DNA from: Acholeplasma sp.
GTDB lineage: Bacteria; Bacillota_I; Bacilli_A; Acholeplasmatales; Acholeplasmataceae
Direction: 5' to 3'
DNA: 35,459 nucleotides
Assembly: GCA_012838065.1 (NCBI GenBank)
Contig: DUPY01000004.1
Location: 1-35,459 of the forward strand
The translations under genes were made by a program, and so were the position numbers. A model generated the notes under the pieces. That model worked only from the letters and a program-made list of their open reading frames with translations, did no database searches and was not told the origin of the DNA. Below, one piece after another: positions 1-29,392 of this stretch (its first letter is position 1; each line of letters opens with the position of its first letter).

Positions 1-1
1 A

Positions 2-3000
2 AGAAATAATTATAGTGCGGGACTTGTAAGTGGTACAAAAGATGTCGGTGGTGTTATTGGTGGCTATAACAAAAGTAGAACAAGTTATGGTGGTTCACCA
101 TACACAAACCAAACAACACGAACAAACTTATACTATGATGTTTCAGTAATTGAAAGTTATATTCAACCTACAGGTAAAATTAAACCAAGCAGTGCTGTAG
201 GCGGTCAAGGATTAGATAAAGTTTCAATGTTTGAATCACAAATGGCTTCAAAAGGCTTTAGTGAAACGATATGGACATTTAAGTCTATTGAAGGAAATTA
301 TGCGTATTATCCACAATTAAAAGTGTTCGCAACAAGCGAAAATGAGCGCATTGTAAGTGATTCAATTAACTCAGTAAAAACAAATCCATTTATGGGTGAT
401 GGTACGAAAGCAAGTCCGTACTTAATTCGTACAGCATCGGATATGGAAATATTAAGTAAAGCAATTGGTAGTGATTATGATGCGTTTGGTATTTATTATC
501 AAGTTGCCTCTGGTGTTTATCAAATTGATTTAACAACGGTTGATTTCAAAGGTATTGGTAATAGTTCGACACCATTTAGAGGACACTTTGATGGTTCGTT
601 TATTAACTTTATTATCGATTTAAACAGTGATGAAAATTATCGTGGCTTGTTTGGACGCATATCAAGTGATGCTAGCGTAAGTAATTTATCTGTTACTGGA
701 TCAATTATTGGCGGAAACTATGTAGGGGCTATCGTTGGCTATAACGAAGGTATGCTTTCACAAGTTTACGCAAAAGTAGATATTGAAGGCAAGAACTATG
801 TAGGTGGTCTTGTTGGCTACAATAAGGGCACGATTGAAGATGTTTTCCAAACAGGGAATGTTATTGGTAGAGGATCTTACATCGGTGGACTCATAGGCTA
901 TAACGAAGGTTCAATTCGTGAAGGGTATTTTGGTGGTAAAATCCACGGTGCATCAAATGTCGGTGGTATCATTGGTCATTCAATAACAGCCGATTTTGAA
1001 AACGTCCACTATAATCAAACAATTATATTCTTTGATGACATAATTGAAGGCGTTATTAAGCCTACAAAAGCAATTAATAACTTAGATATAGACTTAGGGC
1101 TTGAAAAAGAAGACATAACAGGTCTTGAAGTGTTTGATGGCAAGGCAACATTTGATCCAGATAAATGGGTCTTAACACAAACAAATAGTTTATACGATTA
1201 TTATCCACAATTAAAAGTGTTTGTAAATAATACAAATGCACAAATAAAAACATACTCTTCAATTGCAAGTAGAGTTATACGTTTCGCAAAAGGTAATGGT
1301 ACTAAGAACAATCCATACATCATTAGAGATGAAGACGATATGAAGGCATTATCTGACATAACTGTAAGTGATACATTACAAGGTTTGCACTTTAGAGTTA
1401 TGGATGGTGTTGAAATATTAGATTTAACAAATCCAAATTTAGGCTTTGTTAAGATTGGTCGCTCTAATGCAGCAAACCAACAATTTAGAGGTAGTTTTGA
1501 TGGAAATGGTGTGACAATCTTACTTAACATCAATACAAGCACAACAAATTATGCTGGTTTATTTGGATATATCGGTCAAGGATCTGAAATTAAGAACCTA
1601 ACAATTAAAGGTAACGTTACAGGTCAAGACCGTGTTGGTGGTCTTGCAGGTGAAATAAGTGGCGCTACAATAAGCAATGTCTTTAACCATGCCATTATTA
1701 ATGGACGTCAATATGTTGGTGGTATCGCGGGTGTTATAAATGACACACAAATAAGTCAATCATACAACATGGCAAACGTTACATCAAATAATCGTGACAT
1801 TGGTGGTTTAATTGGTTGGGGACAACGTTCTTCAATTACAAACAGCTTCAACTATGGCGACGTTAAAGCATCACTTGTTGTTGGTGGAATTATCGGATAT
1901 GCAAACAATAATATGACGATTCGTGGAGTTTATAACCGTGGTGCAATTACATCAACGGTCACAAGCGGAAGCGCTTGGATAGGTGGTATTATTGGTGCAT
2001 CTTACACAAACACTTACCTTTATGATAGCTATAGTGCAGGAAGCATTATTGCGCGTAGAAATGACCGTATTGGTGGTTTAGTAGGTGGCGTCAGTGGTGT
2101 AACACACGAAGAAAACAGTTACTATGATCAAGCAATTATTGATGCTGTATTATTACAAAGTGGTGAAGTTAAACCAACGCAAGCGATTTTCAATAAACTA
2201 AATCAAGAGACAGTAAGAGGTTTATCAAAAGCTTATCTAGTTGGTTCTAACGGTAAGTTATATGCAAACTTTAGTGACAGCGTTTGGACATTTAAAGACA
2301 ATGAAGGCGCTGTTGCATATTATCCACAACTTAAAGTGTTCGCAACACACTTAAATGATTATGTGAAACTTGATTCACTTGAATCTGTAAGTTCATACGT
2401 GTTTGTTGGTGAAGGTACACAACAAAATCCATACATCATTGTAACAAGTGAAGATATGCAAACATTATCAAGACTTGTAAAAAATGGCATTTCATTTACA
2501 AACAAACACTTTAAAGTTAAGGATGACATTGATGAAATCGATTTAATTTATGGTATAAACTTTGAACCGATAGGTAATGAAGTTGTAAACTTCGAAGGTA
2601 TTTTTGATGGTACTGGAACAAACTTCATTTTAGATCTTAAAGGTGCACAAAATAATGTTGGTTTATTTGGCGTGCTTGGTATTGGTGGCGAAGTTCGAAA
2701 TGTTAGTGTATCCGGTAAAGTAAAAGGATTAAATAATGTTGGTTCGATTGTTGGTTACAATAAAGGATTAATCGAAAATGTTTATTCAACAGCAAGCATC
2801 ACGGGTGATGCCCAAGTTGGTGGACTTGTAGGCTATAACAACGGCATTTTAAATTTTGCATACACCATAGGGGAAGTTCTTGGTAAAGACTATGTTGGCG
2901 GTATTGCTGGCTATAATAATGAAAATGGTATTGTTGAAGATGTTTATAGTTCTGCAAGTATCTTTGGTAAAGTTTATCTTGGTGGTGCAATCGGCTTTAG

Positions 3001-6000
3001 TTTAGGTAATGAATCAAATGTTTATTACAACAAGTCTAAAGTAGAAGTAAGTATAATCGATTCAAATGAAATGCTTTATAAACCACAATTAGCAATTAGT
3101 AATAAACTTGAAGACACAAACATGACAGGTGTGACTTCAAACGACTTATATAGTGGATTTGTTCCACTAAATACAACACACTATAAGTTTGACCAAGCAA
3201 CAGGATTCTACGCTTATTATCCACAACTTAAAGTGTTTGCAAATAGTAAATATCCAAGAATCGCTACACGATCAAGAGATAGTGTGACGGTAAACAAATT
3301 CAATGAAGGTGATGGAACGGAGTCAAATCCATACATCATACGTAACGAATTTGATATGGAAGCTATTTCACAAATGACACAAAATCGTTATACATTGGCA
3401 AACATTTACTTTAAAGTTGCTGATGATGTTGACTCTATTGATTTAAGTAATTTAAGAAATGCATATGTACCGATAGGTAATAATAGTTATCACTTCCAAG
3501 GAAACTTTGATGGAAATGGTGTTGTATTCGTCGTAGATATTAATCGTCCAACAACATCGTATCAAGGTATTTTTGGCGTGATTGGTTCAAACGGATATGT
3601 AAGCAATATCGGTGTTACAGGATCTGTAAAAGCCTATGATTTTGCTGGCGGTATTTCCGGACGCAACTACGGCATTATTACAAATAGCTACAATATGGCA
3701 AATATTTATGTTGAAAGATATTACGCCGGTGGTATTTCTGGATGGAATAACCATACAATTGACACAGTGTTCAACACAGGACACATTATCGCGAAAGATC
3801 GATATGCTGGTGGAATTACTGGTGGTGTCGCTAAAAACAATATCTTAATAAATGCATATAATACCGGCCTTGTTGAATCCCAAGGTGTAAACAACACTTG
3901 GACGGAAACAGGTGGTATTGCTGGTTATACAGCAGGTACAATTAAAAATGTTTATAACGCAGGAAACGTTGTTGGAAGAAACAGTTATATTGGTCATGTT
4001 GTTGGCCGAGTTGAAGGTGATGTTGTTTTTGAAAATGCATCCTATGTTATTGAAAACATTGATTATTTGACTACAATATATCGAAAACCTACACAAGGAA
4101 TTGGTAACGCAACACTTCCTGGCGTTTATGCTGTATATAAAAATCAATTAACAGGCGACGAGATCTTTAATGTTGAGTTAGATAAAGACCGATTTACATT
4201 AAAACAAAGTCAAGAATTATTAGCTTATTATCCACAACTCACATATTTTGAAACATCCAATCGCGCGCTTGTTAAAGTTCATTCATTACAATCCGTATCA
4301 CATGATTTATTCCATGGATCGGGCACAGTAAATAATCCTTACATGATTCATAGTAGTTTTGATTTAAGAGCTTTAGGTATTGTCGTAAAACAAGGATTTG
4401 ATACGATAGGTAAACATTTTATGGTATCAGATAAAGCAGTTATTGATTTTGAACCCATTAAAAACAATTACGTTGAAATTGGAAATATCGACAATCCATT
4501 CAATGCAACATTTAATGGTAACAACATTTTAATGAGTGTTGCAATAACGCATAAAAATAAGGATTACCAAGGAGTTTTTGGTTATATTGGCGAACAAGCC
4601 TATGTTCATGACATTTATGCAAAAGGCTATGTTGAAGGTAACAATTATACAGGATTTATTGCGGGTTATAACTTAGGTAAACTTGAACATATTATTTTAG
4701 ATAACATTACGGTTACAGGAAACAATTATGTCGGAGGCCTTGCTGGATTTAGTAGTAACGTTATTTTATTAGCAAGTGTTGATGGTGTTATTCAAGTTCA
4801 CAATTACGGTGGTGGTCTTGTTGGCCACTTAGAAAACGCAGACATTTCAATGTCATACTTTATAGGTAGCATTGAAGCAACAGGTAACAATATCGCAGGT
4901 TTAATCGCAACAACAACTGGTGAAGTTCATCTTGATCATGTCTTTGCAAGTGGAACACTTAATGCGCTTAACGGCAACAACGTTGCTGGATTAGTTATTG
5001 AACTTAATGGATCAATCACAAATGCATATGTCACTATGGATATCGTTGGATATGACAACGTTTCTGGTATTGTAACAGTAAACAACGGTGCTATTTCTGA
5101 AGTTTTCTATAGTGGAAGTTTAAAATCAAATGGTAAAGTAGCTGGTGTAGTAATTACGAATAATAATGTCCTTGAGAGTGCATATTATAACGAAACTGAA
5201 ATTAGTCGTATCCGTAATACCTATCCATACAATGTACCAACAAGTGCGGTGTATGAAGAAGAGGATACGATTGAAGTCGGAAGTAGAAAGTTGGAAGATA
5301 TGACTGCATATTTCGCACTTGGTAGTGACGAAACACAAATGAACTTTGAACCAGAACTATACCATTTAAAACAAGGCTATGACTTTACACTATACTTCCC
5401 AGAACTTATTCAATTTAGAAACTATAATGGAAAACAAAAGGATATCTATATTGCAGACTCCCTAGCATCTATTACGTATAAGAAAATTGATGGTTCAGGA
5501 ACGAAAAATGATCCATTCTTAATATATGATGGCTTTGACATGATGATTATTTATGATTATGTGAAAGATCAACATCTATTCTTAAACAAATACTTTAAAG
5601 TTGCGCCTGGTGTAAGTGAAATTGACTTAACTGTTGAAGGTTTAGACTACTTACCAATAGGCACGATTGAGTATCATTTTAATGGTATTTTTGATGGCAA
5701 TAACGCAACGTTTATTATTGATTTTAATGAAAACTTACCGTACCAAGGTATATTTAATATTATTGGTGAACAAGCAGTTATATCAAACATGACCATTCGA
5801 GGTTCATTAGTTGGCCTTGGTTACAGTGGTTCATTAGCTGCAGTAAATCTTGGTAAAGTTGAAAATATTACCAACTATGCAAGTGTAACAGGTATGAGCA
5901 TGGATGACGGTGGAAATGATATTGGCGGTATTATTGGTACCAATAGAGGAACAATTCTTCATTCAATGAACAACGGTATTGTTACATCTAAGAGTTCATA

Positions 6001-7660
6001 TGCTGGTGGTATTGCTGGTCAAAATTTAGGAACGATTATAGGTGGTTATAACCGCGCTGATGTTACTGGTTTAGGTAATGTAGGCGGTATTACTGGTATA
6101 AACTATGAAGAAATTAACGGAAGTTACAACATCGGTAAAGTTCAAGCACTTGGTGATATCGTAGGTGGTATTGTGGGTTCAACTTATGGTGTTGTAAAAG
6201 AAAGTTATAATTTTGGTGAAATAATAGCTAAACGAAGTGTTGCCGGCGGTATTGTCGGATTAGCAACAGATGCACTTATTAGCAACACTTACAATGGTGG
6301 AAAAGTACTTGCAGAAAACATCCACGCCGGCGGTTTAATTGGTTATGCTGTTCAAAGCACCATTGAACATAGTAGAAACTTTGGTAGTGTGTTTGCAGTT
6401 GATGAACTAGGTTCTCTAATTGGTTATAGCAATAAATCCACCCTTATGAACACATACTATGATTTAGATCAATTGAATCTTGACAAAACAACTGGTAAAT
6501 ATAAAAAACCAGTTCAAGCAATTGGTAATATAAGTGAAGATACTTACGGTAAATACCATGGTCAAATGATTGGTAACACCGCTGTAACAAAAAACAACTT
6601 GAATTTAGACCAAACGTTGTATACGACGGCATCAAGTATCTTAGAGTATTCATTCTACCCACAATTAAAAGTTTTCGCTGATCATACAAACATTACAATT
6701 AAAAACGACTCATTAGAGTCGGTAAGAACGATAACATTTATCGTTGGAAAAGGTATAGAAAGCGAACCGTATTTAATTAGAAACGAAAGTGATTGGATTG
6801 CACTTGCTGATAGTACGACGAGTGGAAATCACTACACAGGTATTTACTTTGTTGTTGATAAAACAATTGACACCTTGGATTTTAGTGCTACAAGTGATTA
6901 TAAATTCGCACCTGTTGGAACATACCAAAAACCATTTAATGGTATATTGGATGGTCAAGGTATTAAGTTTCATATCGAACATACATCAAATCAAAGTTTC
7001 CAAGCATTATTTGGTCATATTGGTTCAAATGGTATCGTTCGAAATGTAGCTGTACTTGGCTCAATTACGGGTAAAGATCACACAGCGGGCATTGCTGCAC
7101 TTAACGAAGGTACAATTGAACAAGTATTCAATACGGCAACAATTAAAGGTACAAATTATACATCAGGAATTGTTTCTGAAAACTTAAACACTGTTAGAAA
7201 TGTATACAACCAAGGATACATTGAAGGTTTATCATACACTGCAGGTATTGCTGGATATGTTGAAGGTTATGTTCATAACACATACAACATAGGCATTGTT
7301 TACGGTACAGATTATATAGGAGCACTTGTTGGTTTTTACCAATCAGGTAATCTTACAAACAGCTACTATGATGAAACAATTTTAAACAGTTACCGCAGCA
7401 CAGGTCAAATAAAAAAACCTGAGTCGGCTGTTGGTTCATCTTACAATGGCTCGAACGTTAAAGGTTTAGACAAACGCTTCATGACAGGTATTACAGCGAT
7501 TGGTACAGGTTCATTCAATATGAACTTTGTTGATAGCAATGTATGGGTAACACAAAGTAACATCGTTGACCAATCAAACTATCCACAATTAAAACCTTTC
7601 GCAACCGATACACGTGAAACCATACGTAACAGCTCATTTATATCAACAAGAACAGAATTA
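2..7660 (+). repeat. Seven tandem GLUG modules plus the tail of an eighth
   Basis: Each module of about 300-420 residues has the same order: a YYPQLKVFA-like boundary motif, an S-x-x-SV stretch, a GxGTxxNPYxIR preamble, an F-x-G-x-FDGNG segment, several GLUG motifs of the form GGIxGxNxG, and a KPxxAI exit. Boundary motifs start at 305, 1199, 2318, 3215, 4226, 5393 (diverged to YFPEL) and 6656. A last one at 7580 leads into the InlB-type array. Spacings are 894, 1119, 897, 1011, 1167, 1263 and 924 bp, so modules differ in their number of GLUG motifs. GLUG repeats are expected to build a beta-solenoid. The boundary coding sequence is nearly identical between several modules. Confidence 0.85.
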
Positions 7661-10600
7661 TTCAAAGTTACATTTGATGAGCAAAATGATAATATTTCAG
7701 CAATTGTAAGCGAAATTAGTCCAAATGTTCATTATCAATTATATGTACCAACATATTACGGTTACGACTTTGTCGGTTGGTTCTATAACAACGGTGAACA
7801 AGAAATTCAAGTGACAAACGGTAAAGGAGAGTCACTTAAACCATGGACATTTGAACATGATATTGAAGTTTATGCGAAATGGACAGAGACATATCACTTG
7901 ATTCAATTTGTTAATGGTGAAAACAAAGTTATCTATGAAACAGAAGTTAGACACGGATTACTAGCAGAAGCACCAAGCGGCATCATACCAACAAAGAACC
8001 GTGACTCTAAATATGTTTATGAATTTATCGACTGGGACTTTGATTTTGATACAATTATTGAGGCTCCACAACGTATTAAAGCGAACTACAAGACAATTGA
8101 TCGTTACTATAACATTACATTCTTAGATGGAAATGGCGATGAGTTTTTAGTTGTTAAAGCTGAATATGAAAAATACTTAACAAGACCAACAGCTATTCCT
8201 ACAAAAGAGTATCATGATAACGATGCGTACCGTTTTGTTGATTGGAACTTTAATTTCAATCAAATTATTACCGGTGCATTAACGATTGAGCCTGTGTTCG
8301 AACGCGTTGATCGTTATTACACAGTTCGATTCTTTAATGGCGATGAACTTATAGCCATTATCGACAATGCTGAATATTTATTTGGTGTAAATCCACCAGA
8401 AGGTATTCCGCAAAAACAATCGACAATATCGCATACCTACACATTTGCTGGATGGGATAAAGATTTTAGTAAAATTACAAGCGATTTAGATGTTCATGCA
8501 GTGTTTACAGAAAAACTTCGTGTATACACAGTGACATTTAAATATGGCGACAACATAATATATACGACCGAACAAGTTGGGTATGGCAATGTTCCAGCTA
8601 TTCCGGCAGGAAGACCATATTTAGAGCCAAGCGGTCATGATGCCTATAAGTTTACGGGTTGGGATTATGACTTCTTACAACCAATTACATCGGATATTAC
8701 AATTCTTGGAAAGTTCGAACGTGTTGATCGATACTACACGGTTACATTCTATGATGCTTATGGAAATATCATTTCAACTCAAACACATGTTGAGTACTTA
8801 AAATCAGCGGAAGAACCGACAAATCAACCAGAAAAGCTTTCAACACAATCGCATACATACACGTTCATTGGTTGGGATAAAGACTTTAGTGAAGTTACAG
8901 AAAATTTACATATTTATCCTGAGTATAAAGAAATGCTAAGAAGTTATAATGTATACTTCTATTTCAACGATGTGGATAATAAACAAGTCATTTATTCAAC
9001 ACAAAGTGTACTTTATGGCTATGATGCAACCGTACCTTTCGGTAAACCATTTAAAGATGGTACAGATGATATTGGATATAAATTCATTGGATGGGACGAT
9101 AATTATCACGAAATTACCGAAGATACCTATGTACTTGCACAATTTGAAGAAGTTCAAGGAAAATATGTTGTAACATTTATGCATAACGGTCAAATTATTG
9201 GAAGTGACCATGTGAAGTATGGACATAGTGCGAAAGCACCTGTCATTGATTACACACATCCTACGGAAGGCTATGAGTATTATTTTATTAGTTGGAGTCA
9301 TCCATTTGACTTTGTTGAAAGTGATATTACAACAACACTAACTTTAGGTTCAAGATTGAAGACATTTACCGTAACGATTATTAATGGTGACGAAACAATT
9401 GAACAAATGGTTGAATGGGGTAAAGATGCAAAACTTCCAACACCATATAAAACATCATCTGATCAAATTACTTACACATTTATTGAGTGGGATACGGATC
9501 ATCGATTAGTTAAAGAAGATCGTACAATAACTGCTATTTTTGAAGCCAATTATCATTATTATGAAGTTCGATTCTATGATGGTAACGGTGAATTGATTAA
9601 ACTTGAGCATGTTGTACCTGGTGAAAGTGCACACGCACCTAATACAGCTACTCAAGAACCAACAGATGAGTTTGTGTTTATTCACATAGGTTGGGATAAA
9701 GACTTTAGCGAAGTTACAGAAAACTTGAATGTTTATGCAAGATTTACGAAAAAAGAACGTTATCTTAATGTTACATTCTTAAAACCTGATGGAAGTTTAC
9801 TTGAAAAACAAGTTGTTGAATACGGTAAGTCTGTTATCATTCCTCCAGGACCAAGTCGTGATGAAGAAGGTCGATTCAAATACGATTTCATCGGTTGGAG
9901 TTTAGAAAACGATGAGGCGAACACAATAATCAACTTAGATATTATTACCGATAATTTAACATTAAAACCAGTATATGAACAAACGGTTAAGATGTTTGTT
10001 GTCAACTTTATTGATGGTGATGGAAAAGTTATTAAATCTGAACTTGTTGAACACGGCGCGAATGCAGTTGCACCAACGAACCCAAGTCAAAGCGCTACAG
10101 ATGATAAAGTATTTATCTTTAGTCACTGGGATAAGACGTTTACAAACGTTACTGAAAACTTGGATGTTTACGCGAAATTTACAAGTGTAAATCGTTACTA
10201 TGATGTTGAATTTATCGATAAAGATGGTAACGTTGTTAACAGGCAAGTTGTTGAATATGAACAAAGTGCGATAGACCCAATTCCAATAATTAATTACTTT
10301 GATTATGTTGAACTCGATGATACAAAATTATATGTTATTGTTGGTTGGGATAAAGACTTTGATTATGTAACCGAAAACTTAAAAGTGTATGCAATATATG
10401 GATATGTTGATCGTTATTATACAGTAACATTTACAGATGATTTAGGTAATGAAATCATGACATATGAACATGTAGAATATGGCTCAAGTGTTCATGCGCC
10501 AGATGCACCAATCAAAGTAAGTGATGATGAGTTATACTTCTATCAATTTACAGGTTGGGACAAGGACTTTACATATATTCGCGAAAACTTAAGTATTGCA

Positions 10601-13267: not shown

Positions 13268-13274
13268 GTAGAAT

Positions 13275-19200: not shown

Positions 19201-22200
19201 GGCATAAAGACACCTTAGAATATACAATAACAGTTCCATCAAGTGTTGGTACACTTACACTAGCCGTTGTACCTTCAAGTCCAAAAGCAAACGTTTATGG
19301 GAATGGTACATACGAAATTAAACTTGATGATGTCACATCATTTTCATTCTACGTTGAAGCTGAAGATGGCTTAAAAACAGCGACTTACCAAATATCTGTA
19401 TTACGTCAAAGCTTATCAAAAGATGTTTATTTAAAAGAAATTGCATTTAGATATAATGCAAACTACTTATTCGGTTTATCAACTAGAAATCCACAAAGTG
19501 GTGTGGAATACATCTATGATCAACATGAACAAGTTATTAACTTAGGGTATGAATACGTTGGTAGAACAATTATTGTTGAAGACCAAAAAAATCATAACAA
19601 TCAAGAAGTAACTTATATTGGTTTAACAGGAAAAACATTAACACTTCAATATGGAAGAAACGAATTTTCAATTGATGTTAAAGCAGAAGATCGTAGTGTC
19701 GATCCATTTACATATACGATTGTTATACATGTTAAACATAAAACAAACGATTTAGAATCTCTAAAAGTTAATAATGAAGTTGTCGCGTTTGATACAACGA
19801 CATCTGAAATTTATTACGAGACAGAATCAACAACAATTTCACTAGATTACAAAGCATTAAATAACGGAAATATTGTTGTAAAAAACATAAACAATGATAT
19901 CGTGAAATCAAATATCGCGTTAGAATATGGCGATAATATTTTCACTATGCTAGTTTATAACGAATTTGAAGATTTATACAAAGAATATCTATTAACAATT
20001 AAGCGTTTGGAATCAAGTGATAACTCTATTGAAGAGGTTACACTTTTTGGTAGTGATCATATCAACTACCTAAGTTTTAATGAAACAACCTATACGTATA
20101 TAATTGAAGTTCCATATTTTGTTGAAGAAGTTACACTAAGTGTTATGAAGCGTCATGCTTTAGCACAAACATACATTGGATCAGAGTTAACAAGTAACAA
20201 AGTATTCCAATTAACATCAGGCACGGTACAAGATATTGAATTTCGTGTTGTTGCTGAAAATGGTGATACCGTTACGTATAACGTTGAAGTCGTACGTTTG
20301 CTAAACACGGAAAACAAACTTAAAGATTTAACTGTAGAAACAAATATAGATACTTTAATCGATAGCACAATATTTGATGCCGATACTTTATATTACTATT
20401 TTGAAGTTACAGAAGAACATCAAACGTTACGTATGCAATTTGAGGCAAACTTTGGCCAAACAGTAAAAGGTTTAGGCTTTGAAATCAATGAAGTCCTGTC
20501 AATTCAACATGGATTAAACACATTCATCATTGAAGTTTATCCTGAAGATGATTCTATTGATACAATACAATACGTTATTGATATTGAAATGATCAATCAA
20601 AACGCAGATATTGATGAAATTATTGTCAACGGTGAAAACATTTATGTAAATGGAATAAACCAATACACACTAAATCCAGTATCAAGTGAAGTGCAATCAA
20701 TCACACTAGAAGTTTTAGCAAAAGATAATTATGCGCATGTTGAAGTTTTAGTTAACGGTGTGAAGATACAAGATAACAATGTTGTGCTTCAAACTGGAAA
20801 CAATACAATTTCAGTTCAAATAACAAGTGAAAATGGACAAAATATAAGTGAAGTAACAATCAACATTGAACAACTGTTAAATACGTATGACTTATTTGAT
20901 GAACTTAGCGTTATAACCAATAAATCAACTTATTTACTTGGTAGCCCAGATAAAGCCGCAGTGATTACATTTGATCCAGAAGTATTTACATATACATTAG
21001 AAGTTAATGAAGATGTTATCTGGATTAAATTAGACTATGTACTTGGAAATGCTAAACAATCATTTGTTGGTGATTTTAATAAACAATTAACGATTAATCA
21101 TGGTATGAATAGTTTTGAAGTTTGGGTGTATCCAGAAGATACAAGCTTACCGGGACAAAAATATGCAATACAGGTAAATCAAACATATAAAGATATTGAT
21201 TTAAGCGAGTTGAAAGTTAACGGAAAATCAATTTATGATGAATATACACAAGACTATATGCTTGATGCTGTTACGACAGATGTATCAAAAATAACACTAT
21301 TACCAGAGTTAACTAATATTTATGGTCAATATGAAATAATTGATGCTAAAGGCAATGTCATTACAAACAACGAAGTTCCACTATATTTCGGTGAAAACAT
21401 TATTTCTATTAACTTAGTTAGCGAATCAGGCGAAACAACAAGAACATACACAGTTAAAATTCATCAAACGTTAAGTAGTGCAAACGAAATAACAAAAGTT
21501 GAAGTCGTAGACTTAATGACAAACTTAAATAAAATTATTTTTGATAAAAACACGCACACTTACAACGTTACGTTAAACCATACTTCTGACAAAGCAAGAC
21601 TCATTGTTGAAGCAAGTCCAAAAGCGAAAATTTTCATCGATGGTCATGAAGTTGCATTAGGTAAAAAAGACTATTCATTAGCTCAAGGTGAAAATAAAGT
21701 CATCTCATTTTATATCGAAGCAGAAGACGGTAGTCTAACGGATACGTATGAAATTCATGTATATCGTAGAACGGAAGATGAAGGCGCTTTATCAGATAAC
21801 AATATACTAAGTGATTTAAAAGTTGAGCTTCCGATAAACAGCAATACAATTAACTTTGATCCAAGTATTTATACATATTATGTGACGGTACCATATAGCG
21901 CATCTGAAGTGTATTTAAAAGGTTATCCAGAGCATCCAGGCGCAACCGTTTATAATGAAGGCGCATATGCCTTAGAAGTTGGGCAAAACGATCCGATATA
22001 TATTCGTGTACAAGCTGAAGATGGTACACCATCTAGATACCAGTACACCGTAATCTTTACAAGGGAATTACCAAATAGTGATACAACACTAAGCGATTTA
22101 AAACTTTATGATTTGCAAGGTAACTTACTAAACTTTGATCAAAAAGTATTCAATCCAGATAACTATGTGTATAGTATTTCTTTAGGAAAAGATGCGGCAA

Positions 22201-23669
22201 TTAATCAAGTGCGTGTTGTTGCTGAAAAGAATAATGAAACACAAACAATCTTTGGTACAGGTGTTGTAAGTCTACATGGTGAAGTAGAAGGACAGTATAA
22301 TACGATTTTACCTGTAACAGTTGTTGCAGAAGATGGTACAAGCAAAGACTACTTGATTTATGTATTACATGAATTAGACTTCTCTAACTTAATCGAAATT
22401 AAAGATATTTCAATTATTGGGGATGATAACATATCATACTTTGGTCGAGAATTTGCAAGTGATATTTATGAATATGAAGTTTATGTACCATTTAATGTTA
22501 GTGATTTAAGATTAATTGTTCAAACATTTGGTAATGTTATTTATCTTGATGAATTTGGTAGTGAAATTGATGAAAATCGTTTACAATCATTTGATGATAA
22601 CGATTTAATTATTTATCGCTTCAAGATTCAATCGATTAACGAACAAAATTATTCATTGCCATACGAAATCAAAGTCATTCGTGAAAAGGCCGATGATAAT
22701 GTTTTCCTAGAAGATCTAATGATTGACGGTAAAACAATTCCAAACTTTGATAAACATATAAATAATTATGTCTATGTACAATATATTTTAGATCCGAATT
22801 TTGTTAACGTATTTGCCAAAGCAGAAAGCGATTCAAGTGTTGTAAACGGAAATAACACATATGCGCTCATCGAGGGCGATTCCATTTATATTAGCATTAT
22901 TGTTACAGCACAAAACAAATCAACAAATACATACACGGTTGAAGTTAAATATGTTGACTCAAACGCATTATTAAAGGAACTCGCTGTTTATGAAATCGAT
23001 GAATTTGGTAATGAGTTTGTCCGTCAAGTTGCGCTTATTGAAGGTGAATTTAACTATACAGTTCAAATTGATAAGGATATTAAAGTTATTAATATTTTAG
23101 GTTCTGCAATGGATCAAAAAAGCGCACGACTTAGAGGATTTGGTCAATACAATGTTAATGAAGCTGATCTAACTGTTCCTATTACAGTAACAAGCGGAGA
23201 CGGCTCAGAAGAACGTGTGTACTTTGTTACAGTAACGAAAAATCTAAGAGGAAACGCAAAACTTAGAAGTATTGAGATTAACGGACATACCATCGAAAAC
23301 TTTGATTCAGATACATTAATTTATGACGCTGAAATTTCAAGTGATACAGGCATCGTTACAATCTCAGCTGAAGCACGTGATAACAACGCAACCATCTTTT
23401 TTAATGGTAAAACATATGATAACAACCAATTTACACAAAACGACTTACAACCTGGTCAAACATCAATCATAATTAAAGTTGTAAGTGAAAGTGGTGAAGT
23501 TATTGAAACATATGTTGTTAACCTTGCGAAAGCTTATCAACCAGACTTATTATTAACGATTCTTTTAATCGTAAGCTTACTCTTATGGATATTTGCAATT
23601 TTAGTAACAATTATAAAGAAGACACGTAAAGGCAAATCACATGATCACCAAGATCAATTGATTTTCTAA
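13275..23669 (+). CDS. Giant membrane-anchored protein with about 32 cadherin-like beta-sandwich repeats
   Basis: 3,464 residues. The start gives a good signal peptide: basic KKN, hydrophobic core at about residues 12-27, likely cleavage after A32 (PTIA/AD). Residues 33-233 are a unique N-terminal domain that I do not recognise. From residue about 234 to 3422 there are about 32 repeats of roughly 100 residues with the PF12733-like pattern: LxxLxv at the start, F-x-YxVxVPYSV, a GxNxixIxVxAEDG strand and a closing xYTixixR. Residues about 3425-3446 are a single hydrophobic helix followed by KKTRKGKSHDHQDQLIF, a basic cytoplasmic tail, giving a type I topology with the bulk outside. The start lies 7 nt after the previous stop, with AGAAGG about 14 nt upstream, so translational coupling is likely. 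No enzyme motif is seen. A long stalk or adhesin is inferred. Confidence 0.88.
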   Translation: MKKNITVFITKTLIILLAVVSVISLTFTPTIAADENAKIEFGLLDYESKSSQVSIDDFIENADKYGDTYYYFLILSAKSLGSENIKLDGVDLNIQLSEPDVPFEIYDIYVDEYMAKVIDDRGREKEVKYWSRDIGVSTEEAYFTLTFDGEGVIDYQEIEQEPTYLVKIEIGIDASIFDKALDGFYIDLGFDIANSDHNDITYNKNGEAATQFLQDEVKLARFQVGNPSAGPSADLASIEIKTTGTSTVHEHVTKTEDIELDKEITNITYQDSLKGLTINAVPVKQSATVVTTIKSGGNTTTFSGDTGPIADGDEVSITITDEELVKTYTRTFRVVDADDDSSVVFTTNFDQYANHLGFEENPNDYYIEVPYSINSLTVTMTPNSIFTTVEMPTGGKKTQTLSVGENDFGAFTVKTEAGTNQVYHVYVKRLEGSDEKGFSVKIPLISENSIEKEGNTFNAILPELLNTFNIEFTKLHEKTTLYYYEGSTTSQDTSLYELLPSNNELSTQTLENKGDERIYTILAISETGQKEISYIYVKREESSVAKISSIEFIETGEGLPIYTTKITSVSNEIIYNIERGNSSTLVVHPTTLEGGTSTFTDNDGNSVSSSISISDLQFGENIFKITVLPANGDEASVVTYTLKIYKRSSEKELESILLQRSGSSNPEVYRNENETKSYTIILDYETHMDYKVVLTSSPNSYIEINNDQGGAIKQRQREVYFNFTGTNESSYRFVYRIYAEDKSHTEEFFVEVIRRSADDNADLESISIDGTSISGFSKDKFIYDYTVDRFASGSGFIQIQAEASSDVATVRYYVQTTEQLNGIVGLTNGTPITIRVVVTAQNGTTKTYEVRVVAGNTENDITSITLTNPSTPFAFDKSKEDFYVTLPYSVSGITINATASPYATIVGAEFKGVPVNQTVVAEVYAISESGIKGKVYRIHITREEAKIINDLDSLQVSPNDQGTTGLPKEIVTHNLTYTREVTSIRVVATIKSEDRSRFENTQGTTYNVVHTLNPGDNKIMINVISESGDIKTYTINIKIADSNNNLVEFKVGSDVYLPESFDSSKTLVLPDILFSQNVLNLVITKQNPHSVVSFEGLTSKNITTTYNWINLQVGDNVFTFTITSENGDNSTTYTVKVKKLSPNKENSLAGLEILLNGTDLIQTLDDFVLNETTNISLRVDRGVEKVTIKAYILASDRSKVLRLGGGVTDGDYIIYTYDLVLTGRQGDLSTVDFTVQAEDVNFERNFTVRILSKNANNDVDELIIKHGEDIVYQGDFDDVELSSEFSYNVQSLTFYVYKNDGYARLFVENVLTGTVGEQLVTFNSTLKTGLNTIKLRIDSEVTSNESAKDYQTKSITITYTKKAASTVAELDTLTVTYGGGIELFKYESGSTIPFIIRNSENKNYNIIREYETINIIATAKDGGTVTGAGNNKILVDANGTSFKLIVKAENGNEQEYHFTITNKNIDNEIEDITIDGVSIGFDKEVYAYDLTENVYPYTKKTIEIEAIADTYATLTGVGTITLDYNLVDGINVFTVYATSELGVKGKAYVITIKIEKPYKIIDLNDLVVVDDNDQVLSFTNNYQAGTYEYTIDLEPTAQLSNVKVFAELLNDEKQQIDITYGQEFTITLESNGTINKVITFTVTAEDNASKTYTITIKKGIVLSDENDIFDISFAEYAFEFNQSEKTYEFTVPYAVSKLTATVLASDKATISGNKVWNLEVGKETLITIFAVSEKGTKGDDYILRVTRELPSSMSKLDEIYITLSDDINHFIFGNESRDLQSLNEVHFDANTGNYTINLGIEYARKVIYVTAVKGHSGQVLQYFSLNEISNLQTLSLKQGANEFQIFVMAEDGTSSFAYSITINVKNTENDLSELKLNNELIDLESELNYETEQEFVDITYKMVHDSGSVKLFNGLTQVTNKMNLEFGDNLLFIEVYNDYNELVNEYTITITRNKSSNKDITSVTLKDVSGTNYIAWHKDTLEYTITVPSSVGTLTLAVVPSSPKANVYGNGTYEIKLDDVTSFSFYVEAEDGLKTATYQISVLRQSLSKDVYLKEIAFRYNANYLFGLSTRNPQSGVEYIYDQHEQVINLGYEYVGRTIIVEDQKNHNNQEVTYIGLTGKTLTLQYGRNEFSIDVKAEDRSVDPFTYTIVIHVKHKTNDLESLKVNNEVVAFDTTTSEIYYETESTTISLDYKALNNGNIVVKNINNDIVKSNIALEYGDNIFTMLVYNEFEDLYKEYLLTIKRLESSDNSIEEVTLFGSDHINYLSFNETTYTYIIEVPYFVEEVTLSVMKRHALAQTYIGSELTSNKVFQLTSGTVQDIEFRVVAENGDTVTYNVEVVRLLNTENKLKDLTVETNIDTLIDSTIFDADTLYYYFEVTEEHQTLRMQFEANFGQTVKGLGFEINEVLSIQHGLNTFIIEVYPEDDSIDTIQYVIDIEMINQNADIDEIIVNGENIYVNGINQYTLNPVSSEVQSITLEVLAKDNYAHVEVLVNGVKIQDNNVVLQTGNNTISVQITSENGQNISEVTINIEQLLNTYDLFDELSVITNKSTYLLGSPDKAAVITFDPEVFTYTLEVNEDVIWIKLDYVLGNAKQSFVGDFNKQLTINHGMNSFEVWVYPEDTSLPGQKYAIQVNQTYKDIDLSELKVNGKSIYDEYTQDYMLDAVTTDVSKITLLPELTNIYGQYEIIDAKGNVITNNEVPLYFGENIISINLVSESGETTRTYTVKIHQTLSSANEITKVEVVDLMTNLNKIIFDKNTHTYNVTLNHTSDKARLIVEASPKAKIFIDGHEVALGKKDYSLAQGENKVISFYIEAEDGSLTDTYEIHVYRRTEDEGALSDNNILSDLKVELPINSNTINFDPSIYTYYVTVPYSASEVYLKGYPEHPGATVYNEGAYALEVGQNDPIYIRVQAEDGTPSRYQYTVIFTRELPNSDTTLSDLKLYDLQGNLLNFDQKVFNPDNYVYSISLGKDAAINQVRVVAEKNNETQTIFGTGVVSLHGEVEGQYNTILPVTVVAEDGTSKDYLIYVLHELDFSNLIEIKDISIIGDDNISYFGREFASDIYEYEVYVPFNVSDLRLIVQTFGNVIYLDEFGSEIDENRLQSFDDNDLIIYRFKIQSINEQNYSLPYEIKVIREKADDNVFLEDLMIDGKTIPNFDKHINNYVYVQYILDPNFVNVFAKAESDSSVVNGNNTYALIEGDSIYISIIVTAQNKSTNTYTVEVKYVDSNALLKELAVYEIDEFGNEFVRQVALIEGEFNYTVQIDKDIKVINILGSAMDQKSARLRGFGQYNVNEADLTVPITVTSGDGSEERVYFVTVTKNLRGNAKLRSIEINGHTIENFDSDTLIYDAEISSDTGIVTISAEARDNNATIFFNGKTYDNNQFTQNDLQPGQTSIIIKVVSESGEVIETYVVNLAKAYQPDLLLTILLIVSLLLWIFAILVTIIKKTRKGKSHDHQDQLIF
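14154..14187 (+). other. Intragenic inverted repeat with two mutually exclusive hairpins
   Basis: AAAAGTGGTGG (14154-14164) and CCACCACTTTT (14170-14180) form a perfect 11-bp stem with a 5-nt AAATA loop. The right arm can instead pair CACCACT (14171-14177) with AGTGGTG (14181-14187) around a TTT loop. It lies about 880 nt into the second giant gene and encodes a Gly/Ser/Thr-rich turn. Function, if any, is unknown. Chance arising from ggt/acc codons is possible. Confidence 0.4.
18273..21485 (+). repeat. Higher-order three-domain (A-B-C) super-repeat inside the cadherin-like array
   Basis: Domains 15-25 repeat as triads. A types carry the VPYSV-like strand, B types a long insert with INLGxEYxxR and a GxNEFxIxVxAED strand, C types a short entry such as DLSELKLNNE or DLESLKVNNE. 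Triad 1 is 18273-19148 (876 bp), triad 2 is 19149-20024 (876 bp), triad 3 is 20025-20888 (864 bp). A B-C pair without A follows at 20889-21485. Equal length and matching order indicate duplication of a three-domain block. Confidence 0.7.
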
Positions 23670-23682
23670 AAGGAGAACAACA

Positions 23683-24981
23683 ATGAATCTACAAATAAAC
23701 ACACTCATGAATATGAGTCCAGTTCAACGAACATTACTCGTTGTTGCGTCATTAATATTTATCGGTGTTGCCATTTATTTTCTAATCAATTGGTATAAAA
23801 AAACTAGAACAATCGATAAAAAAAATAAAATGATGACAATGAACTTAGTGGTTAAGAAAAAACCATTTATGGAATATCTAGAATATAAGAAAGAGCAACA
23901 AGAACCATTCAACATATTCATGGTAAAAATTAACAGTTTATACCAACTTGAAAAAATATATCCAGATCACATTGTTCGAATGTATTTATCGCGTATTGCA
24001 AAAGAACTTAGTGTTTACTTACCGTTTGGTGGAAAAGTAGCACAAACAGAAAAACGTGATACATTCATCCTTTATTACCCAAAAACAAACGAGGATATGT
24101 ACGAGGTTGGCGAGCGCTTTAAAGCGCTTGCCTCCAAAACCTATCAAAAACCAGATATGAAGGTTACGAAAGGTGCGAGCGTTGCATTTATTGAAGATAC
24201 AGATTTCTCATTAGATCGCGTATCAAGCACACTTGCATCATCACGTAGAAATCTAGGGCTTACAACAAAATATGATGAAAGTATTACTCATGATTCAAGT
24301 GATTTTGAGTTACTAGAAGATAAAATTAAGCAAAGCAATATGTTAGTTAAATCGTGGCATGTTAATAAAAATCTCGATGGTAACTACCGTGAAATTTATA
24401 ATGATGTTGTTATTAACCAAACAACATTTAAACAATTTTTTGATAAAGTTCCAGTTGTGGATCATTCATGGATTAACATGGATGCTATTGAGTGGTTATT
24501 GAAGCATCATTATGACCATCATGTATATTCAGCAATTGACATACCCGTCTTATTAAGCACATTAGAAAAAATAAATTTTACAGAAGTATTTGAACATTTA
24601 GTTTTAGCAAATAGCTTTTTGATGCAGCAAATGATCTTATCGATTAAAATTACAAATGTTACACATGAGGAAAGAATTATTAAAAACATTTTAATGCTGA
24701 ATGAACTTGGCGTAAAAATATCGCTTGAAATTAACAGTTTAAATCAAGAAGTGTACGCATTTATTCAAAAATATCACATTGAAAGACTTGAGATAGATGA
24801 TGCATTAATGAATGATGAAAGTATTTCAGAATTGTTATACTTTGCTAAAGTTAATCATCTAGAAGTTTTATTAAAAACGAACAATAAGAATCGAAATATG
24901 ACGGAATTAAATATTACACATATGACAGGTTCTAATATTGTCTTTAATGCAGAAAATGGAAAGAAAAGAGGTCGTAAATAA
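23683..24981 (+). CDS. Membrane-anchored degenerate GGDEF-EAL protein
   Basis: 432 residues, with a strong AGGAG (23671-23675) upstream of the ATG and 13 nt after the preceding stop. One membrane helix at about residues 17-36 is followed by a basic stretch, so the bulk is cytoplasmic. Residues about 56-190 follow the GGDEF fold pattern (FNIFMVKINSLYQLEK, then VAQTEKRDTFILYYP), but the catalytic GGDEF signature is replaced by TEKRDTF (122-128). Residues about 205-425 follow an EAL domain in outline, including a MLNELGVKISLEI strand and an IERLEIDD strand, but the EAL motif and metal-binding residues are not apparent. It is probably catalytically dead for cyclic-di-GMP, and could bind a nucleotide or act as a scaffold. 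The family call is by eye from weak similarity. The gene overlaps the next by 1 nt (TAATG), which argues for coupled synthesis with the ATPase. Confidence 0.6.
   Translation: MNLQINTLMNMSPVQRTLLVVASLIFIGVAIYFLINWYKKTRTIDKKNKMMTMNLVVKKKPFMEYLEYKKEQQEPFNIFMVKINSLYQLEKIYPDHIVRMYLSRIAKELSVYLPFGGKVAQTEKRDTFILYYPKTNEDMYEVGERFKALASKTYQKPDMKVTKGASVAFIEDTDFSLDRVSSTLASSRRNLGLTTKYDESITHDSSDFELLEDKIKQSNMLVKSWHVNKNLDGNYREIYNDVVINQTTFKQFFDKVPVVDHSWINMDAIEWLLKHHYDHHVYSAIDIPVLLSTLEKINFTEVFEHLVLANSFLMQQMILSIKITNVTHEERIIKNILMLNELGVKISLEINSLNQEVYAFIQKYHIERLEIDDALMNDESISELLYFAKVNHLEVLLKTNNKNRNMTELNITHMTGSNIVFNAENGKKRGRK
24109..24132 (+). other. 24-nt near-perfect GC-rich palindrome inside the GGDEF-EAL-like gene
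   Basis: GGCGAGCGCTTT followed directly by AAAGCGCTTGCC. All positions pair except one G-T. As RNA the G-U still pairs and the TTTAAA centre would open as a loop. It stands out by GC content from the surrounding coding DNA. No T-run follows, so it is not a typical terminator. Role unknown. Confidence 0.35.
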
Positions 24982-26477
24982 TGTCTAAATTTTCAGCTTG
25001 GTTTGTCGCGTTCTTTACGGAGTTTTTTACAGACCTATGGCATATTATCAAAGGGTTTTTTGCTGGTATTTATCGCTTAATTATTGGAAACCCCATGAAA
25101 TATATCAATAATTTAATGGTTTACTCGAAAGAGTATACAGCTGTTGATTGGCTATTAAGTTTAATCTTTCTAGTTATTTTCGCATTATTAATTGTTCTTG
25201 TATGTTTAGTTATTTATCAACAGTTAAAACGATACATTCGTTTTACAAAAATTGAACAAGATAAAATGGTTTTATTAAACCAAATGAATTTGCTTGAGCG
25301 AAGAATAAGAGAAGGTAATGTACCAAGTGTACAAACACCTAAAGTTGGCAGTACACCCATTGTGAAAAAAGATACACAGCGTGTAAAAGGCAACCGCTTT
25401 ACAAAACTAAACTTAATTGACGAAAAATATAAATATACGGTATTACCAACATTAATGACAGAAAAAGATCGCTTATCTTTAAGTGAAATCGTGAGTCACT
25501 TTAGAAATTATGCAGCATTCCACCATAAACTTTACTATAGCGAAAAAGTTGCTGCAATATTTATCGCAGGTCTTGCAACATCGAAAATCTTAATTTTAGA
25601 AGGTATTAGTGGTACAGGTAAAACAAGTTTACCGTATGTCTTTGGTAAATTTATTAACAACGATGCTAACATCATTTCAGTTCAACCATCATGGCGAGAC
25701 CGTTATGAAATGATGGGATATTTCAATGAATTTACAAAAAAATTTAACGAAACGGAGTTTTTAAGTAGTGTGTATGAGGCGACTTATCGAACAGATGTTA
25801 ACCTTGTCGTACTTGATGAAATGAACTTGGCACGTGTCGAATACTACTTTGCAGACTTTTTATCACTTCTTGAATTACCAAATAGTGATGAATGGCAATT
25901 AGAAATTGTTGCTGAACAACAAATTGGCGATCCTGTACATTTAAAAGAAGGCAAAATACGAATTCCAGAAAATATGTGGTTTATTGGTACAGCAAATAAC
26001 GATGATTCGACATTTGCTATTACGGATAAAGTCTATGACCGTGCCTCATCAATTTCAATGAATGAAAAAGCAGTACCATTTTCTGGTATTGATTTACCAA
26101 AAATAACGATAAGTTATCAATACTTAAAAGACTTGTTTGATCAAGCATTATCAACATATCAAATTTCAAAAGTGCATATGGATGCGATCTATAAGCTTGA
26201 TAATCATATTTCAAAAGTTTTCCAAATTACATTTGGTAACCGTATTATGAAACAACTTGAAACATTCGTTCCTGTTTATGTAGCGTGTGGACGTGAGGAA
26301 ATTGAGGCGATTGATTATATTATTGCGCGTAAAATTATTCGTAAATTTGAAACACTAAACTTACCATTTATGAAAAGAGAACTTGAAGAATTGGTTTCTT
26401 TATTTGATAGTTTATTTGGTAAGAATAAACTTATTGAATCAAAAACAATGATTCTTAAGTTTATTACGCAAGTATAG
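24981..26477 (+). CDS. Membrane-tethered McrB-like AAA+ ATPase
   Basis: 498 residues. N-terminus: an amphipathic or hydrophobic segment (about 8-35) and a clear membrane helix (about 57-80), then a linker. The AAA+ domain has Walker A GISGTGKT (208-215), a Walker B of the McrB type in NLVVLDEMNLARVEYYF with D279-E280, sensor 1 in WFIGTANND (N339/N340), and an arginine-finger candidate at R354 in YDRAS. The LDEMNLARVEYYFADFLSLLE-like run (276 onward) is typical of the McrB/AAA_5 branch that pairs with McrC/DUF2357-type partners. McrB proteins of restriction systems are soluble with an N-terminal DNA-binding domain; here a membrane anchor takes that place. It overlaps the upstream gene by 1 nt and the partner gene starts 9 nt downstream. 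ATP-driven work at the membrane is inferred and the substrate is unknown. Confidence 0.82.
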   Translation: MSKFSAWFVAFFTEFFTDLWHIIKGFFAGIYRLIIGNPMKYINNLMVYSKEYTAVDWLLSLIFLVIFALLIVLVCLVIYQQLKRYIRFTKIEQDKMVLLNQMNLLERRIREGNVPSVQTPKVGSTPIVKKDTQRVKGNRFTKLNLIDEKYKYTVLPTLMTEKDRLSLSEIVSHFRNYAAFHHKLYYSEKVAAIFIAGLATSKILILEGISGTGKTSLPYVFGKFINNDANIISVQPSWRDRYEMMGYFNEFTKKFNETEFLSSVYEATYRTDVNLVVLDEMNLARVEYYFADFLSLLELPNSDEWQLEIVAEQQIGDPVHLKEGKIRIPENMWFIGTANNDDSTFAITDKVYDRASSISMNEKAVPFSGIDLPKITISYQYLKDLFDQALSTYQISKVHMDAIYKLDNHISKVFQITFGNRIMKQLETFVPVYVACGREEIEAIDYIIARKIIRKFETLNLPFMKRELEELVSLFDSLFGKNKLIESKTMILKFITQV

Positions 26478-26486
26478 GTCTTATAT

Positions 26487-28289
26487 ATGAATAACGATTA
26501 TAAGAAAGAATTTTTTGATGAATCAATTGCTGAAAACAAACAATCAACATTTTTAAAAACATTTTTTGATGCACTGAAAAATGGCGATGTTAAACGCACG
26601 CAATCACTTCAAGTTGAATACCAAAGATTTGAGGAAGAATGGTTAAATAATTTGAATACTTTCTTTCCAAGTCTTATTCAAATTACACGCGATTTAAAAA
26701 GTTCATTAAGAACAGAAGAAGAAATTTTACCTGTTGAAAAAACACGGCGAACAAATCCGGAATCAATTCGGCACTTACTAAGAAACACTCGATACATTAA
26801 AGATATCGATGAATCTGGTGACATTATTCCAGAAAAAGTTTTAAATGCTTTATCAGAAATAGATTATGGGATTTATGAAAACCGCTTTATTATGACACTT
26901 GTTGATAGGCTCTATCATTATTTACATAGACGTATAGAAGTTATTAGAGAGCATGTCATGGGTAACAAAGAAATGCATTTTAATTATGAAAGTTTCTTTG
27001 AAATTGATAAAACGAGTTATCAGATGCAAATCAACATAAAAGCTAACGAAGAAATTGATATTAAAGAAATTGATATTCATAACTATCGAATTTATGAGAT
27101 GGCCAATGAAGCATTTAAAGTCATCTCACGTATTTATCATAGTGAATTTATGAAAGTTATGAAAAAATATCAAAAAGTAAAACCACCAATTATGAAGACG
27201 CAAATCATCTTGAAAAATCCTAATTTTAAAAATGCGTATTTGTTGTGGCTATACCTTGATAAACTTAATGAGTTAGAATACACTTTGGAGCGTAAGATTA
27301 AAAAAGTTGATTTTAGTAAAACATATTCCGAAGAAATTGATCGTAGCATTTCAGCCTTGTTTTCAACAATTTATAACAATAGTGATATTAGTATTAAAGA
27401 TGGGGAAATTATTACCGAAAATATAAAGCCAAAAAGTAACGATGTGGACTATGTTAATAACGCATCACTTACACCAGTGCCCTATGTTTTAGAGCCAAAT
27501 CTTGCAACAGAGTATCACTTGAAAAAAGCCAAACAATTTATTAATAAGCAATTCACTGAAATTACTCAAACGACTCATGATCATGAACAAAGTTTAAAAC
27601 AATTGCTTGTTGACCAATACGGTATTGCAAATCAAGTCTTTAATTATTATTTTGAAACCGATCAAGATGAAGATGTCTTTGATCGCCTCATTAACTATGC
27701 GAATCCGGTTAGACGTTATGAGGAAGCACTCCGTAAGTATGTTGTTGCAAAAACACAAAGAGAAGTTACAGAAAAAATGTTTAATGATGCTGTAAACCTT
27801 GAAGCACGTTGGATAAGAGAAGCTGACATACTTCATAAAGAAGCCATCAAACATATTATGGATAAAGAATACAAAGAAACCGAAGAAGTTGTTATGAAAA
27901 TGCGTAGAGAACACGCAAGAGAAATGGATGGCTTTGACCGTGAACTTGTTAGTGAAACAAAGAAGAAACTTCGTATTGCTCGAACAAAAAATAAAGAAAG
28001 TATACAACTTATTAAAAAGTCGTATAGTGATAAGCTTAAAGAGTTTAGAGTTAAAGAGCGCGAACGCGTAGCAAACGAACGTGAAAAAATTAAAGAACGC
28101 AACAAAATAATGCGTCAAAAAATTAAAGAAAAACGTGCGAAAGAACGTGAAAAAGAACTTCTTAAATTAAAGAAAAAACGCGAACAAGACAAAGAAGCTC
28201 TCCGCAAGCGCTTAATGATGCAAAAAGACAATCTTCGCAAGCAAAACAACGAAAAATTGCGAAAGTTAGCAAGTAAAACTGTTGAGTAA
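26487..28289 (+). CDS. DUF2357/McrC-like partner protein with long C-terminal coiled coil
   Basis: 600 residues, no signal peptide and no membrane helix. The N-terminal 400 residues resemble DUF2357/McrC-like partners of McrB-type ATPases, most visibly in YGIYENRFIMTLVDRLYHYL, where ENRF (131-134) is the recurrent motif. From about residue 441 to the end the protein is an almost pure Lys/Arg/Glu coiled coil, with no recognisable PD-(D/E)XK motif where McrC carries its nuclease. This suggests a structural or adaptor role, perhaps bridging the membrane-bound ATPase to another component, which is inference. Start ATG 26487 has only a weak AGGT upstream and is probably coupled to the ATPase gene 9 nt before. 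It is the last gene before the terminator at 28302-28339. The DUF2357 assignment rests on the motif and on context and needs a profile search. Confidence 0.6.
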   Translation: MNNDYKKEFFDESIAENKQSTFLKTFFDALKNGDVKRTQSLQVEYQRFEEEWLNNLNTFFPSLIQITRDLKSSLRTEEEILPVEKTRRTNPESIRHLLRNTRYIKDIDESGDIIPEKVLNALSEIDYGIYENRFIMTLVDRLYHYLHRRIEVIREHVMGNKEMHFNYESFFEIDKTSYQMQINIKANEEIDIKEIDIHNYRIYEMANEAFKVISRIYHSEFMKVMKKYQKVKPPIMKTQIILKNPNFKNAYLLWLYLDKLNELEYTLERKIKKVDFSKTYSEEIDRSISALFSTIYNNSDISIKDGEIITENIKPKSNDVDYVNNASLTPVPYVLEPNLATEYHLKKAKQFINKQFTEITQTTHDHEQSLKQLLVDQYGIANQVFNYYFETDQDEDVFDRLINYANPVRRYEEALRKYVVAKTQREVTEKMFNDAVNLEARWIREADILHKEAIKHIMDKEYKETEEVVMKMRREHAREMDGFDRELVSETKKKLRIARTKNKESIQLIKKSYSDKLKEFRVKERERVANEREKIKERNKIMRQKIKEKRAKEREKELLKLKKKREQDKEALRKRLMMQKDNLRKQNNEKLRKLASKTVE

Positions 28290-28301
28290 TTATTAAAAAA
28301 T

Positions 28302-28339
28302 GAGTGTCTAAAAAAAATTATTTAGGCATCTCTTTTTTT
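28302..28339 (+). terminator. Rho-independent terminator closing the giant-protein operon
   Basis: GAGTGTCTAAA (28302-28312) pairs with TTTAGGCATCTC (28321-28332), with one G-U and one bulged base, across an 8-nt A/T loop. Seven T residues (28333-28339) follow. It lies 12 nt after the stop of the coiled-coil gene and ahead of the galE promoter, so it separates the two transcription units. Confidence 0.8.
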
Positions 28340-28362
28340 AAGTATGAAAATATTAATGTTTT

Positions 28363-28371: not shown

Positions 28372-28382
28372 ATCATTAAGAT

Positions 28383-28390: not shown

Positions 28391-28395
28391 AAAAC

Positions 28396-29391: not shown

Positions 29392-29392
29392 A

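Follow-up and report, generated by a model that had tools for sequence, protein, structure and literature searches.

A putative surface-filament operon in Acholeplasma, with a probable dockerin-cohesin-like joint, a proposed NTPase platform related to fibre systems, and a predicted c-di-GMP swap

Five co-directional genes of Acholeplasma sp. form a conserved unit that we consider, on balance, to be a surface-filament operon: two giant exported proteins would be held together by a dockerin-cohesin joint, served by an NTPase platform taken over from fibre systems, and exchanged for another surface structure in response to c-di-GMP. An exported, membrane-anchored filament in two parts, accompanied by such a platform, is the best supported of the readings that we weighed; defence, motility, and giants without a link between them are all weaker. 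The new elements are 1) the pairing of a dockerin with a cohesin-like domain; 2) the placement of the AAA+ protein and its DUF2357 partner as a branch of the CoCoPALM group; 3) the confinement of c-di-GMP-I riboswitches to surface operons; and 4) the opposite expression platforms of these riboswitches. If the reading is true, an NTPase of restriction type has been reused to build or control surface filaments, for which we found no experiment, and the system would illustrate by what means a minimal cell without a wall can present a tether of great length and select one of two surface coats. The predictions are concrete, namely one protein-protein joint and two groups of riboswitches of opposite sign. 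Within the literature library that we searched, no paper turned up on Acholeplasma that deals with its giant surface proteins, its c-di-GMP riboswitches, or the expression of this operon.

The window, i.e., the whole stretch of 35,459 nucleotides that was analysed, comes from a genome of 1.18 Mb and holds the five genes on the plus strand, with junctions of 7, 13, -1, and 9 nt and a single closing terminator-like hairpin (Table 1). This is the arrangement that a sequence-only reading had described, and its call of two giant extracellular proteins is also borne out, with the qualification that the window starts at a contig edge (G000:C38:1) and the 5' part of giant 1 is missing. Polysaccharide-synthesis genes lie past position 28381, outside the five-gene unit.

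Table 1. Position of the five genes and of their main features in the window
Feature	Position	Strand	Basis
Giant 1, secreted surface protein	2..13267	+	ORF, 4421 aa (3' 4421 codons, 5' open)
Listeria-Bacteroides-type repeats of giant 1 (~70 aa each)	~7649..12709	+	sequence reading, Pfam PF09479, spacing 68-73 aa
Conserved module preceding the giant 1 dockerin	12710..13039	+	alignment, 11/11 orthologues
Type I dockerin at giant 1 C-terminus, two DxNxDG-type loops	13040..13207	+	PF00404, E 3e-10; 49.5 bits in genome search
Giant 2, with signal peptide, cohesin-like and cadherin-like domains, and a C-terminal TM	13275..23669	+	ORF, 3464 aa
Predicted cohesin-like domain (residues 34-225) at the giant 2 N-terminus	13374..13949	+	AlphaFold2 model, Foldseek, VIA-align
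Transmembrane anchor at the giant 2 C-terminus, followed by a short basic tail	23550..23666	+	hydropathy, sequence
Gene 3: membrane-anchored degenerate GGDEF-EAL protein	23683..24981	+	ORF, 432 aa
Gene 4: membrane-tethered McrB-like AAA+ protein	24981..26477	+	ORF, 498 aa
Gene 4 motifs: Walker A; Walker B; NxDD sensor	25599-25625; 25812-25826; from 25995	+	sequence
Gene 5: DUF2357-like protein, ending in a long helix/coiled coil	26487..28289	+	ORF, 600 aa
Terminator-like hairpin with U run at the end of the operon	~28301..28340	+	-15.2 kcal/mol, z -5.7, 0/200 shuffles

Neighbourhood maps of 46 loci revealed the order giant 1, giant 2, gene 3, AAA+, DUF2357 at every readable locus, 15 in all, of the AAA+ clade of the window, as far as contigs reach, and these five-gene loci span at least two orders (genomes G000, which is that of the window, G003, G013, G024, G025, G028, whose contig extends only to gene 3, G039, G044, G048, G054, G082, G084, G086, G090, and G225). 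Giant 2 is present at every locus of the clade that has upstream sequence, and giant 1 wherever the contig extends that far. The flanks of the block are common only to G024 and G048, two close relatives; elsewhere, flanking genes gave no more than a small number of matches, which were weak or short. As the order is kept and the flanks are not shared, the five genes are the unit. The proposal that the three cytoplasmic-side genes serve the giants gains support from this pattern, since giants do recur beside the AAA+ and DUF2357 genes of the clade. In the single-gene trees, the AAA+ proteins are concordant and genes 3 and 5 largely so, and the giants of G003 and others regroup. The trees thus indicate that giant genes have been swapped between blocks and that the trio can go with more than one giant pair; strict co-inheritance of all five genes was considered and dropped for the same reason.

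Complete orthologues of giant 1 have 5300-6768 residues and an N-terminal signal-like segment. In giant 1, GLUG-like repeats (VGGLVGY) lie upstream of the Listeria-Bacteroides-type stretch, and a type I dockerin ends the protein in 11 of 11 cases; it passes the Pfam Dockerin_1 cut-off with its calcium loops present, its profile matches solved dockerins, and it is the single dockerin of the genome in the four single-contig genomes (G003, G013, G039, and G086). Giant 2 has 14 scored cadherin-like domains (Pfam). The AlphaFold2 model of its residues 34-225 (mean pLDDT 76.5) has a cohesin as top Foldseek match (5lxv, E 1e-6), and VIA-align gives cohesins in all of rows 1-42 (Z 10.8-7.9, with the first unrelated row at 7.9), at identities of only 5-13%. 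Because the Pfam Cohesin model does not match the domain, we predict a cohesin-like fold and make no assignment to the Cohesin family. In 11 of 12 genomes, a profile of the domain hits exactly once, and each of these hits is at the start of giant 2; the 12th genome, that of the window, has a second copy on contig C64, directly after a dockerin-ended giant 1. A cohesin had been anticipated from reading the N-terminal region of giant 2, before the structure model was made.

Since a dockerin ends every giant 1 and a predicted cohesin-like domain begins every giant 2, and each block has a single copy of both, an end-to-end joint between the giants is probable, and we infer from the pairing that they bind in trans. 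An alternative that we regard as unlikely is that both giants are displayed unjoined, the dockerin binding something else and the N-terminal domain of giant 2 being an ordinary beta-sandwich. Many proteins have sandwich folds, attachment of giant 1 could be achieved otherwise, a few relatives have other cohesins (and further dockerin and cohesin proteins occur in some relatives), and the lack of a Pfam match would also fit; against this stand the unbroken series of 42 cohesins among the top structural matches, the strict one-to-one pairing of dockerin and N-terminal domain in adjacent genes, which extends to the second copy in the window genome, and the solitary dockerin of the single-contig genomes. 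The end-to-end joint would recall cellulosome scaffolds, where type I dockerins and cohesin-like folds also occur in neighbouring genes, but no enzymes or carbohydrate-binding modules were found here and the joint would link two structural giants.

The assignments of the cytoplasmic-side genes by the sequence-only reading hold up. Gene 4 is McrB-like, with McrB as its nearest solved structure (E 1e-3), and gene 5 scores 33.7 bits against a DUF2357 cut-off of 23.3 in the whole-genome search, the window copy falling below the cut-off in a plain hmmscan, where 9 of 20 members of its family match. Throughout the gene 4 family, an N-terminal TM helix lies near residues 56-80, and the Walker A and Walker B motifs, N339-x-D341-D342, and the next arginine, which is arginine-finger-like, are invariant (15/15). 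The model of gene 5 comprises the DUF2357-like part and a long helix only (predicted 190 residues); searches for McrC with gene 5, by sequence profile and by fold, returned coiled-coil proteins only, a long-helix model being ill-suited to comparison with the McrC fold. Gene 3 proteins align as a family to GGDEF/EAL structures (E 5e-12) and are degenerate: all 14 have lost the EAL catalytic residues (E, N, E, DD, K, E) that an active EAL phosphodiesterase would have, and they retain an altered, RDTF-like GGDEF site. The sensor-type EAL proteins of operons with SipW-type signal peptidases are, unlike gene 3, mostly intact.

The sequence-only reading knew of no described system of this composition, which is not quite right, as the AAA+/DUF2357 pair branches within CoCoPALM, a group of McrBC relatives that was named in one paragraph in 2024 and left for later work (eLife 13:RP94800, PMC11090510). 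The N-terminal membrane helix and coiled coil of the AAA+ protein may correspond to the FtsB-like transmembrane plus coiled-coil segment of CoCoPALM GTPases. Common to both are an McrB-like AAA+ protein, a coiled-coil DUF2357 partner, and an NxD-type motif, which is NxDD here and fits NxxD too, the deletion itself being indistinguishable. In a tree of 51 AAA+ proteins, the giant clade is one branch (100/99) nested among the SipW-associated proteins, its parent node with SipW-type members being supported at 100/100; on this evidence, the pair forms one derived lineage among the CoCoPALM relatives of McrBC. The giant block departs from the group in having no TasA-like gene and two giants with dockerin/cohesin-like ends instead, in including a degenerate GGDEF-EAL gene, and in a riboswitch predicted to be of OFF type and not of ON type. 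Signal-peptidase genes, typical of CoCoPALM, were not found in the five-gene block or its near flanks in the giant clade and are present in the paralogous operon described below.

A place among the McrBC relatives, which are mostly restriction systems (PMC11090510), raises the question of defence. The pair could be a phage-defence or restriction module that shares an operon with surface proteins, e.g., as a barrier to phage adsorption or as a membrane sensor of infection, and the AAA+ protein matches the PADLOC candidate PDC-M26A (E 1e-41), a match from which a defence reading was considered and set aside. We hold this to be very improbable. With McrBC type IV restriction, the pair has in common the AAA+ ring and the DUF2357 partner, but it is membrane-tethered, no DNA-binding domain was found, and the PD-(D/E)xK nuclease is not seen: CoCoNuT and McrBC restriction systems carry a nuclease fused to or beside the McrC homologue, and there is none in the gene 5 model and no nuclease gene in the blocks of the giant clade. 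Further counts against defence are the neighbours, which in nearly all relatives are either secreted themselves or involved in secretion, the predicted control by c-di-GMP riboswitches, and a gene order that different genera share, where defence islands have a shuffled context.

A second AAA+/DUF2357 pair exists in the window genome (contig C23), within a paralogous operon (contigs C34/C23) that encodes SipW-like signal peptidases and TasA-like secreted proteins. Paralogous operons occur in most relatives, with SipW-type signal peptidases on either side of the pair plus TasA-like proteins. The label 'TasA-like' was given by size and by the pattern of the signal peptide, as these secreted proteins matched no model of Pfam or NCBIfam. 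The operon on C34/C23 is the sister system that resembles the SipW-TasA fibre operons of Bacillus subtilis type, and the window operon has none of their genes. Homologues of the trio without giants, a finding that would have spoken against a dedicated link between the two, are the rule in the wider family, where 75 of 80 named loci have the SipW/TasA context, and not in the clade of the window itself. As the pairs of the wider family stand beside SipW/TasA genes, the reading widens: the pair would serve secreted surface structures in general.

This wider role also bears on motility. The NTPase might pull the giant tether through the membrane anchor of giant 2, as part of a gliding or contractile apparatus, and such work would suit a membrane-tethered NTPase with all its Walker and arginine-finger-like motifs intact and a partner with so long a predicted helix. 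Still, nothing cytoskeletal or ratchet-like is encoded in the block, TasA-like fibres are served by the same NTPase pair, and gliding is not known in Acholeplasma; we found no evidence for either motility or contraction, which the sequence-only reading had named as examples of a possible role, and regard this explanation as highly unlikely. The gliding genes of Mycoplasma mobile offer an analogy of layout only, and a Pfam scan of the window gave no family hinting at gliding proteins.

We favour instead the two-part filament, which might work as follows. Giant 1 and giant 2 would be exported via their signal peptides. Giant 2 would be held in the membrane by its C-terminal helix, its cadherin-like chain reaching outward to the N-terminal cohesin-like domain, and this domain would capture the C-terminal dockerin of giant 1. 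The resulting tether would comprise 8,000-10,000 residues, and its distal part would be the giant 1 repeat region, which is most likely adhesive. On the cytoplasmic side, an McrB-type NTPase ring, the DUF2357 partner with its very long helix, and the catalytically dead GGDEF-EAL protein would make up a platform that may assemble, place, or gate the filament, and that would descend from a platform serving SipW/TasA-type fibres. Where a riboswitch accompanies the giants (8 of 15 blocks), rising c-di-GMP would cause one surface structure to be swapped for the other.

Signalling by c-di-GMP is plausible in these bacteria, since each genome encodes 6-20 GGDEF domains. In G039 and G225, Rfam identified c-di-GMP-I aptamers immediately before giant 1; it also placed such aptamers upstream of SipW/TasA operons. 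A model for whole-genome searches was built from seven of these Rfam-identified aptamers, two of which are from giant blocks and match by construction. It detected 32 strong riboswitches in 14 of 15 genomes, all at surface operons: 8 at giant blocks, 21 at operons of the AAA+/DUF2357-SipW (CoCoPALM) type, and 3 at other TasA-like operons, all in G225; G048 has one additional weak match. All eight giant-block aptamers pass the Rfam gathering threshold of RF01051; seven precede giant 1 and one (G048) lies between giant 1 and giant 2. Upstream sequence of 7.5 kb or more is available for 30 named SipW-type loci, and 27 of them have a riboswitch there. A riboswitch is not recognisable in 7 of the 15 giant blocks, and the idea that one before giant 1 is a universal feature was dropped. 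The window itself contains none because the 5' end of the operon is missing; elsewhere in its genome, one riboswitch precedes TasA-like genes (C34) and one precedes a giant 1 start (C67), which may be that of the window or that of the second giant 1 copy.

The expression platforms differ between the two kinds of operon. In SipW-type leaders, the aptamer 3' strand (AGCCAGTTG...) doubles as the 5' arm of an intrinsic terminator, which is how ON switches are usually laid out; a hairpin of this ON type scores for 59 of 74 aptamers on the CoCoPALM side and for 1 of 8 at giant blocks (G039; Fisher p 3e-4, a guide only, as aptamers of the same locus are not independent). Giant leaders have a separate terminator-like hairpin 12-27 nt after the aptamer and before the start codon (8/8), although the candidate of G225 overlaps the coding start and is doubtful, and in G039 the ON-type fold also scores. 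The terminator loops are complementary to the aptamer 3' strand in about six of the eight giant leaders and beat shuffles at 0.05 in three of the eight. Giant-block riboswitches are thus predicted to be OFF switches and those of SipW/TasA operons mostly ON switches. With opposite platforms, reciprocal control is expected: when c-di-GMP goes up, TasA-type fibres would go on and the giants off, which suggests that the cell swaps its giant filament for a second surface fibre via c-di-GMP. More tentatively, and as a possibility that we would not yet lean on, the membrane McrB/DUF2357 NTPase could be a general motor for the assembly of extracellular fibres in wall-less and related Bacillota, with a TasA-like version, a derived giant version, and riboswitches of opposite sign choosing between them. 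An ON leader of the antiterminator kind has been measured in B. thuringiensis (PMC4933901). A report on Clostridioides difficile (PMC6200980) offers a precedent in describing several c-di-GMP riboswitches that control surface structures and adhesion; in these Mollicutes, unlike in the C. difficile regulon, c-di-GMP-I riboswitches were recognised solely at surface operons that are McrBC-linked or TasA-like.

The AAA+ and DUF2357 genes also occur in a third layout, AAA+–DUF2357–AAA+ sandwich operons adjoining long secreted proteins, and the AAA+ proteins of these operons form one clade of their own in the tree of AAA+ proteins. Other AAA+ genes have no neighbouring DUF2357 gene (L110, L118, L126, L132–L134, L139 and L140), and part of these clearly lie in tandem with a complete AAA+/DUF2357 operon, on its upstream side. 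The AAA+ family of the window (24981–26477) is matched by the PADLOC candidate model PDC-M26A and may therefore be labelled as defence in automatic annotation.

In the related genome G225, TasA-like operons (L193 and L194) that lack the AAA+ pair within the stretch read are also preceded by c-di-GMP-I riboswitches.

The genes that follow the five-gene block encode an epimerase, Wzy_C, a CapD-like protein, a phosphomannomutase and a nucleotidyltransferase. The window's genome has a second giant 1/giant 2 junction, on a short contig. Among related genomes, dockerin-bearing open frames of at least 16,000 residues occur at G087:C8, G095:C3 and G104:C11, and G024 encodes a 1730-aa protein with canonical cohesins two genes ahead of a 2407-aa dockerin protein.

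Locations of the features discussed
Feature	Location	Remark
Polysaccharide synthesis genes	window 28381-35457	immediately 3' of five-gene block
Sandwich operons	L067, L087, L069, L071, L081	genomes G013, G093, G168, G375, G191
Second giant 1/giant 2 junction	L173 (G000:C64), 1-3622	
G024 cohesin and dockerin proteins	L176, 4629-17679	separate from giant block
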